The position numbers and the translations under genes were made by a program. Below, piece by piece: positions 2,707 to 62,923 of a stretch of 64,000 nucleotides of DNA (its first letter is position 1; the number at the start of each line of letters is the position of its first letter). The stretch covers positions 4,150,054 through 4,214,053 of the forward strand of contig NZ_LT599032.1 of assembly GCF_900079725.1 (NCBI RefSeq), read 5' to 3'. This stretch comes from an uncultured Dysgonomonas sp. GTDB lineage: Bacteria > Bacteroidota > Bacteroidia > Bacteroidales > Dysgonomonadaceae. The notes below the pieces were generated by a model. The model was not told where the DNA came from and ran no database searches. It saw nothing but the letters and a program-made list of their open reading frames with translations.

Positions 2707-3813
2707 TTAAGTGAGCCTTGTTTTGAACTTCTTTAAACTTACCACTATCAGGGATACTGCCATAACTAATAGTATTATCATCTCTTTTAATACAAATACT
2801 ACATCCACCCCCTCTATCATAAGCTTTCTTACGGATGATACATACCATTTTGCCGGTATGATATCAGAAAACCATTGGAGAACCGCAGGCATGCTTTCTA
2901 TAGGGAATATCATTCCCGAAAGCAGCATCACAGGCATCATCAATCCCATACCTGAGACCAGCATGGCTGCGACCTGTGTATCTACAATAGTAGAGATAAG
3001 CAAGCCTAAAGCCAATGCCACCATAATGAACAGAACGGAAACGATTGTCAGCCAGAAGAGACTTCCCGCCACAGGTACCTGTAATACAAAGACCGACAAA
3101 AGGAGTATTGTAGACAGATTGACAAAAGATAAGGTGAAATATGGAACCATCTTTGCGAGAATGATGTATATCGGCCTAATCGGCGATGCTAATAGTATTT
3201 CCATAGTACCCTGTTCTTTTTCGCGTACAATAGCTATGGATGTCATCATGGCGCATATCAGCATCAGTATAAGCCCCATTACTCCGGGAACGAAGTTATA
3301 GGCGCTTTTAAGCTGAGGATTGTATAGCATTCTTATCTCGGGTATAATCTGAAACGGAACTTTATATTCCTGCATTAGTTCCTGCTGATAGGAGGTGATA
3401 ATACTGGTTGCGTAACCAGATAGCATACTAGCCTGATTTGGGTCGGTAGCATCGGTTATAAGTTGTACAGACGCTTCCCCGGTATGTAGCAGGTTATCAC
3501 TGAAATTTTCTCCAAATACGATTACCAGATTAACTTTCCCTTCTTTGAATATTCTGTCCATATCATCGGGATTATTTAGTACTTCCGTAACAGTAAAATA
3601 TTCGCTAGCCTGTAATTGTTCCGTGATGCGCTGTGTTGAAATATCTTTTGAGGGGTCGAATATCGCAATCTGCGTATTTTTCACTTCGGTTGTAATTGCA
3701 AACCCGAAAAGTATAATCTGCACTATGGGCATGCCAAGCAGGATAAGCATAGTACGCCTGTCGCGAAATATGTGGAAGAATTCTTTTTTTACGAAGCTTA
3801 TGAATTGTTTCAT
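2707..3813 (-). CDS. ABC-2 type transporter permease (YbhS-like)
   Basis: A 368-residue permease with the same layout as its neighbour at 1516-2628: one membrane helix near residues 22-42, a periplasmic domain with a DPNQASM segment, then five or six C-terminal helices. The coupling motif REKEQGTMEILLASP (about residue 195) is diagnostic of ABC-2 drug-exporter permeases of the YhhJ/YbhS group. The two permeases are expected to form a heterodimer driven by the ATPases at 4306-5960. The start codon at 3813 lies only 9 bp from the inverted repeat of the four-helix-bundle element, so its translation-initiation region is made partly of repeat DNA. Confidence 0.92.
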   Translation of the reverse strand: MKQFISFVKKEFFHIFRDRRTMLILLGMPIVQIILFGFAITTEVKNTQIAIFDPSKDISTQRITEQLQASEYFTVTEVLNNPDDMDRIFKEGKVNLVIVFGENFSDNLLHTGEASVQLITDATDPNQASMLSGYATSIITSYQQELMQEYKVPFQIIPEIRMLYNPQLKSAYNFVPGVMGLILMLICAMMTSIAIVREKEQGTMEILLASPIRPIYIILAKMVPYFTLSFVNLSTILLLSVFVLQVPVAGSLFWLTIVSVLFIMVALALGLLISTIVDTQVAAMLVSGMGLMMPVMLLSGMIFPIESMPAVLQWFSDIIPAKWYVSSVRKLMIEGVDVVFVLKEMIILLVMAVSLIVVSLKKFKTRLT

Positions 3814-3828
3814 CTAATTAATAGTTGA

Positions 3829-3870
3829 CAGTTGATAATGGACAGTTGACAATGGACAGTTGACAATGGA
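3829..3870. repeat. Three tandem 14-bp units at the left end of the element
   Basis: The unit CAGTTGACAATGGA occurs three times back to back at 3829-3842 (one difference), 3843-3856 and 3857-3870, preceded by a partial unit. The matching inverted copy at the other end of the element (4291-4318) has two units. Confidence 0.85.
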
Positions 3871-3914
3871 TATTTCAAAGTTTATGATTATTTTCGTTAA
3901 TTATTAATTTACCA

Positions 3915-4265
3915 ATGGTTGCTGAAAAATCGTATAACTTTGCTCTAAGAATAATAAATCTGTATAAGTGGCTTGTGGCAGAACATAACGAATATGTTTT
4001 GTCAAAACAATTACTTCGTAGTGGAATAGCTATTGGGGCCTTGATAAAAGAAGGTGAACATGCCCAGTCTAAAGCTGATTTTCTAAACAAAATGAATATC
4101 GCTTTAAAAGAAGCCAACGAAACCGAATATTGGCTTATGCTTTTGAAAGATGCAGCTTTTTTATCGGAGAAAGAATTTGTTTCCATTCATTTAGATTGTC
4201 AAGAATTAATAAAACTTCTTATAAGTATTGTAAAAACAACAAAAGAACGATTAAACAGAAGTTAG
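3915..4265 (+). CDS. Four-helix bundle protein (S23/IVP family)
   Basis: A 116-residue all-alpha protein. The segments SYNFALRIINLYKWL, LSKQLLRSGIAIGALIKEG, FLNKMNIALKEANETEYWL and HLDCQELIKLLISIVKT form four amphipathic helices. The combination LxxQLLRSGxSIGA...A...EA.ETxYWL is the hallmark of the family first found as the 23S rRNA intervening-sequence protein and structurally related to Avd of diversity-generating retroelements. Family members are basic bundles thought to bind nucleic acid. It is transcribed against the surrounding exporter operon and framed by inverted repeats, so it is foreign to the operon's function. No clear TAnnTTTG promoter precedes it. Confidence 0.88.
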   Translation: MVAEKSYNFALRIINLYKWLVAEHNEYVLSKQLLRSGIAIGALIKEGEHAQSKADFLNKMNIALKEANETEYWLMLLKDAAFLSEKEFVSIHLDCQELIKLLISIVKTTKERLNRS

Positions 4266-4305
4266 TAGTAAATAGGTTTTGCTATTCACTGTCAATTGTC
4301 CATTT

Positions 4306-5049
4306 TCAATTGTCAACTCTAAGAGCTTTTCTCGCCAACTGCTGAAATACTCCGTCCATGCTATCCGCATTGAACCGGTGGCGAAGATTGGCAGGGGTGT
4401 CCAAAGCTTCTATCCTGCCGTCGACCATGATAGATACCCTGCGGCAATATTCAGCTTCATCCATATAATGAGTAGTTACAAATACGGTGATCCCTCTGTC
4501 CGAAGCCTGATATATCAGCTCCCAAAACTGACGGCGGGTAGCCGGGTCGACACCACCGGTAGGTTCATCGAGAAAAACAACTTTAGGTTTGTGAAAGATA
4601 GAGACGGAGAAAGCCAGTTTCTGTTTCCAGCCGAGAGGTAATTCTTTTACGAGCGTATTTCGTTCATTTATAAAACCCAGTTCGGTCAGTATTTCATCCG
4701 TTTTGGCTGATATCTCTTTGTCTTTCATTCCGTATATTCCTCCAAACAGGCGCATGTTTTCCCATACCTTCAGGTCTTCGTATAATGAGAATTTCTGGCT
4801 CATATAGCCTATGTTTCTCTTTACGTCTTCCTGTTGTCGGGCAATATCGAATCCTGCAACCATGCCTTTTCCTGAGCTTGGGTAACTCAATCCGCAGAGC
4901 ATGCGCATAGCAGTTGTTTTTCCCGCGCCGTTTGCCCCCAGAAAGCCGAATATCTCACCTCTGTCTACACTGAAGGAAATATTATCTACGGCCGTGAAAT
5001 TGCCGAATTTCTTTGTGAGATTTTCCGTATGTATTACTTTTTCTGTCAT
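4306..5049 (-). CDS. ABC exporter ATP-binding protein (YbhF C-half-like)
   Basis: A 247-residue ATPase. Walker A is GANGAGKTTAM (about residues 39-48), Walker B is VVFLDEPTGGVDP, and the H-loop follows in VFVTTHYMDEAE. The signature motif is LPLGWKQKLAF rather than LSGGQ. This deviation is shared with the second nucleotide-binding half of E. coli YbhF, so the site is probably a natural degenerate one. Its ATG overlaps the stop codon of the upstream ATPase gene by one base (TAATG), implying translational coupling. E. coli has the two halves fused; here they are separate. The last codons (VDN, stop) come from the neighbouring inverted repeat, so the original C-terminus may have differed. Confidence 0.93.
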   Translation of the reverse strand: MTEKVIHTENLTKKFGNFTAVDNISFSVDRGEIFGFLGANGAGKTTAMRMLCGLSYPSSGKGMVAGFDIARQQEDVKRNIGYMSQKFSLYEDLKVWENMRLFGGIYGMKDKEISAKTDEILTELGFINERNTLVKELPLGWKQKLAFSVSIFHKPKVVFLDEPTGGVDPATRRQFWELIYQASDRGITVFVTTHYMDEAEYCRRVSIMVDGRIEALDTPANLRHRFNADSMDGVFQQLARKALRVDN

Positions 5050-5976: not shown

Positions 5977-6853
5977 TTAGAAGCTGTTTGAATTATATTA
6001 TTTATCTGTTTTTGTTAAAACCTGACACATCTGACAGTTTTCTTAATTTTTTCGGTTGTCATATTTTTCTTCTTTTTGTGTTCGCCCTTTCTTTTCTGTG
6101 AAGAAGTAAGTACCTGCATATCCTTTTTTGTATGTTCGTTTTTCGGGGGGAACTCGATGATGGCCTCCGCGCAGGTTTCCAATATTTCTTCCGCCGGTTT
6201 TTGATCTATACTATTATCTGCTTCTTCTATTTTTTCCAGAGTTTCGGCTTCATCCTTCATTGTGCATGCTTTAGCGGCTTTCTCCTCCCCCTGGGGAAAT
6301 CGGGAGAGGCTATCCTTCTTATCCTTTCTGTCCAGCAGCATCTTTATCGTGCGAAGGTCGGGCGGGCATTCCTTTTTTGTAACTGTCTTCTGCTTGAAAA
6401 CAAGTTCGCCTGTATGTCCATCGGGGACATAGATGTCTTTTTCTACCGTGGTGTAATAGCCTTCAAGTTTCTTTTTCAGTGAAGCATGGATCATCGTCAT
6501 CAGTTCCGCTTCGCGGCGCACTACCGCCTGTTCCACTTCGCTGCGGAAATCGCCTCTGGTATTCATCCAGCAATAATATGTCTCACGGCTGATGCCTGTT
6601 GCCTTACATACCTGTGATACGGTGAAAAACTCGTCTTCAAGCAGGCTTACAATCTTTTCTGTCAATTCTGTACTGTACTTTGCCATAATGTTTTTGCAAT
6701 ATAGATAAACAGTATTTCTATTCATACAAAATTTTAACATTTTAGAGGTTAGTGGCAGAAGCTTCGTGTTATGGCCCTCCTTCCCTCGGCTACACCGAAA
6801 CACTAGGCTTACAATAGTCAAAATTACTCTGTTATAACTCAAACAGCTTCTAA
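5977..6853. repeat. 15-bp perfect inverted repeats bracketing an HTH gene
   Basis: TTAGAAGCTGTTTGA at 5977-5991 is repeated exactly in inverted orientation at 6839-6853. The adjoining AGTAACTGTTTA at 5968-5979 is also repeated inverted, at 6897-6908, overlapping the stop of the winged-helix gene. Together the left arm (5968-5991) is therefore present inverted on the right but split by 43 bp. The bracketed 877 bp contain only the 223-residue HTH gene. This suggests an insertion between the HlyD side and the ATPase side of the exporter operon. No target duplication and no transposase were found. Confidence 0.5.
6015..6686 (-). CDS. Helix-turn-helix protein with charged C-terminus, phage-terminase-small-subunit-like
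   Basis: The start at 6686 (MAKYSTELTEKI) was chosen because the domain begins there; an in-frame upstream extension to 6842 has no family-like sequence. The N-terminal 50 residues form a helix-turn-helix (VSQVCKATGISRETYYCWM) like that of phage terminase small subunits and related DNA-binding proteins. Residues 55-110 are helical with an EKDIYVPDG turn. The rest is low-complexity, Glu/Lys-rich, and ends in KKTVRCVRF. DNA encoding this last tail (6015-6062) is repeated at 45476-45524 without the gene. It sits inside inverted repeats within an exporter operon, so it is probably acquired. The exact function is not known. Confidence 0.65.
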   Translation of the reverse strand: MAKYSTELTEKIVSLLEDEFFTVSQVCKATGISRETYYCWMNTRGDFRSEVEQAVVRREAELMTMIHASLKKKLEGYYTTVEKDIYVPDGHTGELVFKQKTVTKKECPPDLRTIKMLLDRKDKKDSLSRFPQGEEKAAKACTMKDEAETLEKIEEADNSIDQKPAEEILETCAEAIIEFPPKNEHTKKDMQVLTSSQKRKGEHKKKKNMTTEKIKKTVRCVRF

Positions 6854-45212: not shown

Positions 45213-45332
45213 AATCTATCTCTATTGAGTTAATAATTTGTGTTTATTGGATAGATATATTTTTGTTGGCGATTCCATAAATTCAGCGTGTATATTTTTC
45301 TGGAATTTTTATGTAGCAAATCGAATCCGGAT

Positions 45333-45396
45333 AAAAAAGGTAACAAAGGTAACACAGAAAACAATTAATAATTAAGAATGAATAATTAATAATTAT
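45333..45396. repeat. Composite repeat copy 1 (GGTAACA pair plus AATTAATAATT block)
   Basis: The GGTAACAAAGGTAACAC motif (45333-45355) is followed by a 34-nt block at 45363-45396. The same order recurs at 45761-45821. Confidence 0.8.
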
Positions 45397-45401
45397 CTTG
45401 T

Positions 45402-45468
45402 CCCCTCGCTCGCGCAGACTTCCCTTTTCAGTTGTGCGACAGACACCGGAAGTCCGCGCTAGCGGGGG
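45402..45468. repeat. GC-rich imperfect palindrome
   Basis: Arms 45402-45423 and 45448-45468 pair (CGCGCAGACTTCC against GGAAGTCCGCGCT) in an otherwise AT-rich gap. It has the character of a dispersed palindromic unit. Confidence 0.65.
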
Positions 45469-45475
45469 TATTTAG

Positions 45476-45524
45476 TTAAAACCTGACACTTCTGACAGTT
45501 TTTTCATTATTTATACCTTGTCAT
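45476..45524. repeat. 49-nt copy of the 3' end of the HTH gene
   Basis: The first 27 bases differ from 6015-6041 at one position and the rest is weaker but ends in the same TTGTCAT. On the minus strand it would read ATGACA...KTVRSVRF, stop, but with a frame break in the middle. Confidence 0.6.
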
Positions 45525-45552
45525 TTTTGCATCTGTTAATCATATATAGATG

Positions 45553-45663
45553 AAAAGTAACAGAGGTAACAGATATATAAGTTAGCAGTTAACCAACTTG
45601 TAACCTGTAACTACCCGCAGGGCGAAGTAACTTGTAACTGTTAAAAGGTAACAAAGGTAACAC
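45553..45663. repeat. Two further GGTAACA-type motif copies
   Basis: Copies at 45553-45572 (AAAAGTAACAGAGGTAACAG) and 45643-45663, with a degenerate copy at 45841-45860. Confidence 0.6.
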
Positions 45664-45760
45664 TCTTTCTGTCTTCTCAACTATAACCTTTTCCCTTCTT
45701 CCTTAACAATAATCATTTCAAAGACCGCTTGCTATTAACCTATATTTGCAATTTATAGTT

Positions 45761-45821
45761 AAAAGGTAACAAACGTAACAAGAAACTAATTAATAATTAT
45801 GAATGAACAATTAATAATTAT
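45761..45821. repeat. Composite repeat copy 2
   Basis: GGTAACAAACGTAACA-type motif (45761-45782) followed by the 34-nt block at 45788-45821, which differs from 45363-45396 at two positions. Confidence 0.8.
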
Positions 45822-45942
45822 TTTCTTATACCTCTTGAAGAAACGTTACAAACCTTACAACTATCTACACTATTCTTATCACTTCCCATTCATTGGCACA
45901 TTAAAACAGTATAGATAAACATTTGGGTATTTCATAACAAAA

Positions 45943-45974
45943 AGAGGTGCTTTAGCAATTACTAAAGCACCTCT
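45943..45974 (-). terminator. Terminator of the AsmA-like gene
   Basis: Perfect 13-bp stem (45943-45955 with 45962-45974) and a 6-nt loop, 25 bp after the stop codon; on the minus strand it is followed by a CTTTTTG run. Confidence 0.9.
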
Positions 45975-45998
45975 CTGTGCAAGATATGTATTCTGTCT

Positions 45999-62813: not shown

Positions 62814-62839
62814 GATAATTATGATTTCAAGATTTCAAG

Positions 62840-62909
62840 ATTTCAGGTTTCAAGATAAAGATGTAGTTATATTGTGAATAACATATTTTGAAATCTTGAA
62901 ACCTGAAAT
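62840..62909. repeat. 17-bp inverted repeat between S-component and PRTase genes
   Basis: ATTTCAGGTTTCAAGAT (62840-62856) is repeated exactly inverted at 62893-62909, loop of 36. Its left side begins with tandem GATTTCAA units (62823-62838). Confidence 0.75.
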
Positions 62910-62923
62910 TCCGAAATTATTTT

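Follow-up and report, generated by a model that had tools for sequence, protein, structure and literature searches.

The window, that is, the whole 64,000-nucleotide stretch of Dysgonomonas DNA that was analyzed, contains a small gene that separates the ATPase gene from the permease gene of an ABC transporter operon and is bordered by a repetitive arm on either side (Table 1). The first-pass annotation had assigned its product to the S23/IVP-type four-helix bundles, and this assignment was confirmed by matches well above the curated cut-offs to PF05635 (E 3e-28, 98.5 bits, cut-off 33.8) and TIGR02436 (E 2e-30, 105.1 bits, cut-off 24). By sequence, the nearest solved structure was 2rld (E 1.6e-38). 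The gene is antisense to the ATPase and permease genes, a point on which the annotation had been silent. ORF analysis and family searches revealed no other gene inside the cassette, and no transposase. The cassette is not located inside a 23S rRNA gene, an Rfam search of positions 3600-4600 gave no match, and neither PADLOC nor PHROGs contained a match for the feature. Upstream of the transporter genes, the protein encoded at 6015-6842 showed a weak match to HTH_Tnp_1 (24.0 bits versus the Pfam cut-off of 24.1 bits).

Table 1. Features of the window locus and the additional PF05635 copies of the source genome.
Feature	Position	Strand	Basis or remark
ABC-2 type permease gene, downstream in the operon	2707-3813	-	ORF and family search
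Left arm, about seven 7-bp units, RTTGAYA alternating with ATGGAYA	3823-3872	+	repeat analysis
IVP/S23 gene, 116 aa, four-helix-bundle family	3915-4265	+	profile matches; antisense to operon
Right arm, repeating the left arm in inverted orientation; final 13 nt coincide with the ATPase 3' end	4282-4318	+	
ABC transporter ATPase gene, upstream in the operon	4306-5049	-	ORF and family search
PF05635 copy L005, between sdhA and sdhB			neighbours named from translations, without family search
PF05635 copy L007, after an SDR gene			neighbour named from translation, without family search
PF05635 copy L008, with in-frame stop, between a MoxR-type ATPase gene and a DUF58-type gene			neighbours named from translations, without family search
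PF05635 copy L009, between leuC and leuD			neighbours named from translations, without family search

The inverted ends of 28 nt that had been reported around the small gene are real. The segments 3823-3850 and 4291-4318 matched in inverted orientation at 25 of 28 positions, whereas 300 randomly chosen pairs of windows with equal spacing gave 18 of 28 at best, and a repeat search lengthened the pair to 37 nt with 84% identity. Two details of the earlier description had to be revised. The tandem unit, given as 14 bp, actually consists of two units of 7 bp, GTTGACA and ATGGACA. In addition, the segment had been thought to provide the stop codon of the ATPase gene, with which the right arm overlaps by 13 nt (4306-4318). 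The stop codon is, however, native: the C-terminal VDN of this ATPase corresponds to the RGDN, RSDN, and RGEN termini of relatives both with and without an insert. Throughout the family, the outer end of the left arm was found a median of 1 nt past the upstream stop codon, and it overlapped the stop in 28 of 61 scored loci. Therefore, the overlap with the ATPase stop follows a rule of the family and does not reflect a donated stop codon.

The arrangement was then compared across related genomes. PF05635 was present in at least 43 of 61 genomes (the source genome and 60 relatives). At least 117 distinct PF05635 genes in 75 gene contexts were found, a minimum number in which weaker or partial matches are not included. 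For 109 of the 117 the full gene and its flanks were available, and the best local match between the left 250 nt and the reverse complement of the right 250 nt was used as the score, with a threshold of at least 14. This threshold was reached at 69 of the 109 loci, versus 11 of 109 in the direct orientation, 31 of 1308 pairings with other loci, and 1 of 114 neighbouring genes. A second set of named loci, which are the best 80 of 588 from a genome scan seeded with the subfamily of the window gene, spanned Bacteroidota, Cyanobacteria, Clostridia, Gammaproteobacteria, Sulfurovum, Acidobacteria, and others; many of these are MAGs, and the names may be wrong. With usable flanks available for 78 loci, the inverted score passed at 63, compared with 10 of 78 (direct), 146 of 936 (other-locus pairing, 15.6%), and 2 of 73 (neighbouring genes). 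Accordingly, 40 of 109 and 15 of 78 loci remained below the threshold. The neighbouring genes were our own ORF calls of at least 90 aa, not annotated genes; one of these controls, L126, scored 21, and the flanks inspected lack a heptad array. Both the proposed link to S23/IVP intervening sequences and the view that these elements settle in the gaps between operon genes are thereby supported, with inverted arms at most of the scored loci.

Quantification of the repeat periods showed that a period of 7 dominated both arms (0.71 and 0.72, versus 0.46 in the far flank; 187 loci), and 7 was the best period in 129 of 187 left arms versus 21 of 187 far flanks. At 88 loci, a clear heptad array was present in both arms. 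The two arms shared an identical heptad in 36 of these 88 cases, versus 1.7% across loci. The repeat unit is locus-specific, but it tends to match between the two arms of a locus. A common form, ARTKNNN, was fitted by 174 of 223 arm units, versus 27% of random heptads and 94 of 223 reverse complements, although the strength of this fit is overstated because one set of loci served both to derive the form and to count it. Similarity of the IVP proteins correlated with similarity of the repeat units (Mantel r 0.27, 0 of 2000 permutations, 104 loci). This correlation would fit recognition of the unit by the protein, but it would equally fit common descent and base composition, and it was not taken as proof. 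Together, the comparisons establish the arm-gene-arm layout with a locus-specific repeat as a pattern of the family, common in many bacteria.

A trivial explanation would be that AT-rich gaps yield spurious repeats, or that annotation produced the pattern. The flanks are indeed AT-rich, and 15.6% of the other-locus pairs of the named set reached the threshold. However, none of 300 random pairs attained the 25 of 28 matches, the direct, other-locus, and neighbouring-gene controls passed far less often, and strict heptad arrays are rare, with three in the 64-kb window, one of which is the arm described here. The controls refute this explanation, which we regard as extremely improbable. In 106 kb of permease loci of the relatives, six strict heptad arrays were found, five of them in a single gap. 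We also considered whether heptad arrays generally flank other cargo. This was rejected, as in L003 and L022 another interspersed repeat is bordered by an array on just one of its sides. Among virus contigs, eight stretches fitted the pattern, and none of them encodes a relative, in a search that covered close relatives.

The source genome contains five PF05635 genes including the window copy, and short tandem repeats flank all five on either side, with a different unit each time. Three copies passed the inverted-flank threshold (22, 23.5, and 19.5). The copy between sdhA and sdhB failed (8.0), and its left and right arrays differ in period; the broken L008 copy was left out of the scoring. 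The gene family thus has four more members in the same genome, and there is no second copy of the window cassette itself. Only partial matches were found, namely 148 nt at 73% identity in the gene at the SDR site and two arm-like stretches without a gene. The idea that the ends are common transposon termini was not borne out, because the arm sequence varies from locus to locus, no second cassette exists in the genome, and a transposase is absent. A classical insertion sequence or MITE is likewise not supported: the IVP gene is the only gene inside, the ends differ between loci, and the own genome yielded only partial matches. As a whole, the earlier interpretation is partly supported.

The relatives also bear on the history of the window's site. 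In G004 and G025, an IVP gene occupies the same ATPase-permease gap, and both genes group with the window gene in the tree (support 96/86). This argues that the insert is old at this site. The alternative that had been raised, an ancestral part of the locus that is free of repeats and has no other copies, agrees with these orthologues, but not with the repeats of their own at these sites, nor with the existence of other copies. The first-pass annotation had proposed a search for the empty site. In the closest relative, the sister genome G019, the gap is short and retains just a scar of about two heptads, and in G014 and G017 it is bare and measures about 10 nt. In G035 (L050), the gap contains heptad arrays of two units only and no IVP gene. 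In G025 (L150), the arm extends into coding sequence: the first permease codons contain an inverted copy of the 3' coding end of the ATPase gene.

The orientation of the IVP genes was highly uniform. In the set of relatives, 98 genes had the same orientation as the operon, 2 were opposite, 4 convergent, 2 divergent, and 7 at an edge; in the named set, the respective numbers were 56, 4, 6, 7, and 7. In the co-directional gaps of both sets combined, 154 of 160 IVP genes face the way of the operon, and the window copy is among the exceptions. Because its orthologues in G004 and G025 face the operon's way and group with it, the window cassette has probably been flipped within its arms.

At 13 sites, both flanking genes are common to more than one genome, and the IVP genes form one group at 9 of these 13 sites. 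A detailed comparison of G000 and G019 did not yield uniform results. At the sdh site, the IVP genes are 100% identical and the flanks 91-99%, and at the moxR site the IVP genes are 98% identical. At the SDR and leu sites, the identities are 67% and 72%, respectively, the arms are new on either side, and the IVP genes of G019 branch outside those of more distant relatives; the SdhB of G019 is 100% identical to that of G000. For 129 ortholog pairs, which are non-independent, the identities of the two flanks correlated with each other (0.63), whereas the correlation between flank and IVP was 0.18. In the same non-independent pairs, the arms matched better within the locus than across the orthologues in 99 cases, with 12 ties and 18 worse cases. 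Presence is also patchy: of 27 genomes (the cut-off locus of G001 was excluded), 11 have more than 300 nt between sdhA and sdhB, and the other 16 have no more than 52 nt. Several PF05635 copies among the matches listed carry stops. These comparisons show that the cassettes get swapped, broken, and lost, and that they do not merely track their neighbouring genes. Usable dS values were obtained for 16 of 92 pairs, and the median dN/dS of these was 0.13, which indicates purifying selection on the IVP protein where it is measurable. G015, G018, and G012 (L291, L295, and L298) carry other inserts, of a different element class, between leuC and leuD. Because they stand there in place of the IVP cassette, this gap appears to be a hot spot.

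Two explanations of this history were weighed. The first is a small operon gene passed on by vertical descent together with a hairpin for processing or attenuation. Its protein would serve the host, the spacer repeats would grow by slippage, and template switching at quasi-palindromes would even out the arms. Clustering by site at 9 of 13 common sites, the low dN/dS, and the occurrence of heptad hairpins without cargo, such as the G035 gap, would be expected. The patchy presence in the sdhA-sdhB gap, the poor tracking of the flanks by the IVP identity, the unrelated functions of the host operons, and the broken copies would not, and we consider this explanation unlikely. The second is a mobile DNA element. 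Here the arms would function as DNA, either as a cruciform or as sites of recombination, the IVP protein would bind to them, and an enzyme of the host or from outside would relocate or exchange the cassette. The 75 gene contexts for 117 genes, the sharp swaps between G000 and G019 (at the SDR site, 67% identity in the IVP gene versus 91-94% within 250 nt on both sides), the position of the G019 leu and SDR genes outside those of more distant relatives, the scars with leftover heptads, and the flip in the window all speak for it. However, the cassette lacks a transposase, the arms are not common to the copies, and a comparison by eye of filled and empty gaps revealed no clear target site duplication. 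Furthermore, the swaps could be explained by ordinary homologous recombination via the flanking genes, and the orientation bias of 154 to 6 points to transcription. A mobile DNA element therefore seems rather improbable to us.

The predicted RNA structures also point to the transcript. In the operon-strand RNA of the window, the arms are predicted to pair around the gene (z -2.64), and 0 of 100 shuffles were as stable; the duplex of the two arms was calculated to have -48.5 kcal/mol. In the family, the median duplex stability was -35.5 kcal/mol within loci versus -21.0 kcal/mol for mixed loci, and at 90 of 187 loci it fell below the 5th percentile of the mixed pairs. The pairing on the operon strand, the within-locus duplex stability, and the orientation bias together argue for an element that acts at the transcript level.

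The closest described system is the intervening sequence (IVS) of 23S rRNA in Coxiella and Leptospira, and for this reason we read the cassettes as intercistronic intervening sequences. According to the parts of PMC4990558 drawn on here, RNase III cuts the stem whose loop holds the S23 ORF of the Coxiella IVS, the ORF is in the sense orientation, two or three tandem heptamers occur at the 5' cut site, and the S23 protein was reported as decaying. Compared with these parts, the cassettes share several features: an S23/IVP ORF as the loop between stem-forming inverted repeats, tandem heptamers in the 5' arm (in the window, period 7 is present in both arms), an ORF that is, as a rule though not in the window copy, in sense with the host transcript, and a patchy distribution with some broken ORFs. 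In contrast to the IVS as described there, the present cassettes are located between protein genes of operons, have locus-specific, near-ARTKNNN arrays in both arms, and exist in many copies per genome; their IVP proteins are apparently under purifying selection, and the window copy is antisense. By our own comparison, the Coxiella heptamer GACAGAT given in PMC4990558 does not fit ARTKNNN. Heptad-like stretches were also noticed in rRNA operons, at 1501-1521 of both L011 and L023, placed between tRNA and 23S and between 23S and 5S, and a pattern scan found such stretches at four operon-like places.

On balance, we favour, with some reservation, the view that the window segment is the intercistronic counterpart of a 23S rRNA intervening sequence. 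The arms would pair in the transcript of the operon as a long stem with the IVP gene as the loop, and RNase III or a similar enzyme would cut this stem. Cutting would either remove the insert or split the mRNA between two genes, where little harm would be done. The IVP protein may bind its own stem and aid the persistence of the cassette, or its copying into the same gap elsewhere. After a flip, as is probable for the window copy, the stem could still form in the operon RNA. Several observations weigh against this intercistronic IVS: the window copy is antisense to its own operon, loci fall below the flank threshold in both sets and include sdhA-IVP-sdhB of the source genome, the inverted repeats would also make a DNA cruciform, the Coxiella heptamer departs from ARTKNNN, the reported decay of the Coxiella S23 protein has no parallel here, and the insert is located outside rRNA.

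A wider generalization is tempting, but we think it doubtful. It would posit a widespread class of mRNA intervening sequences, in which each S23/IVP lineage recognizes its own heptad in both arms (a fixed ARTK plus three free positions), enters the same operon gap of other genomes by homing-like copying, possibly aided in trans by a reverse transcriptase, and uses the 3' end of its new neighbour gene as the seed for its arms, with the rRNA intervening sequences as a special case. The inverted ATPase end at the permease start of G025 might be an example of such seeding. According to the parts of PMC10053308 drawn on here, the Avd protein of diversity-generating retroelements belongs to the same four-helix-bundle fold family. 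Unlike for Avd as presented there, no reverse transcriptase gene is present in the window, but 12 RVT_1 matches occur elsewhere in the genome. Because the genome encodes reverse transcriptases, an Avd-like partnership in trans is possible.

Among described repeats, the TAACTGA repeats are intergenic tandem heptamers near gene ends and are mostly direct, as stated in the sections of PMC4679880 drawn on here. Their reverse complement can be rotated to AGTTATC, which, as we infer, fits ARTKNNN, and a term search of PMC4679880 found no link to an S23 gene. In the open-access full text searched, we found no description of S23/IVP genes between heptad arrays in operon gaps. S23 ORFs in rRNA inserts were already known, and the new aspect is that matched inverted heptad arms are a family-wide layout in operon gaps. 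The S23/IVP family thereby gains a defined partner, the matched heptad arms. To our knowledge, the proteins have been known from rRNA inserts for decades without a function. Because related genomes offer many sites that are filled, empty, flipped, or broken, RNA processing and the recognition of the arms by the protein become directly testable. If the arms are processed, the inserts would alter the expression of their host operons, such as those for succinate dehydrogenase and leucine synthesis, and others.

In REP/RAYT systems, a gene likewise lies between short inverted repeats, which are also found on their own; the RAYT protein is a transposase, whereas the IVP protein is not. Repeats without a gene were observed at three further places in the window. 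A cargo-less TTTCAAG heptad hairpin lies between two genes at 62814-62923 and resembles the arms of the IVP locus L087 of another genome. A long gap at 45213-45998 contains AATTAAT-type arrays together with a second interspersed repeat that recurs at other loci of the genus. Lastly, the next gap of the transporter operon (2629-2706) contains a small gene-less hairpin with short repeats of the TAGC type, and a longer one is present in the same gap of G004.
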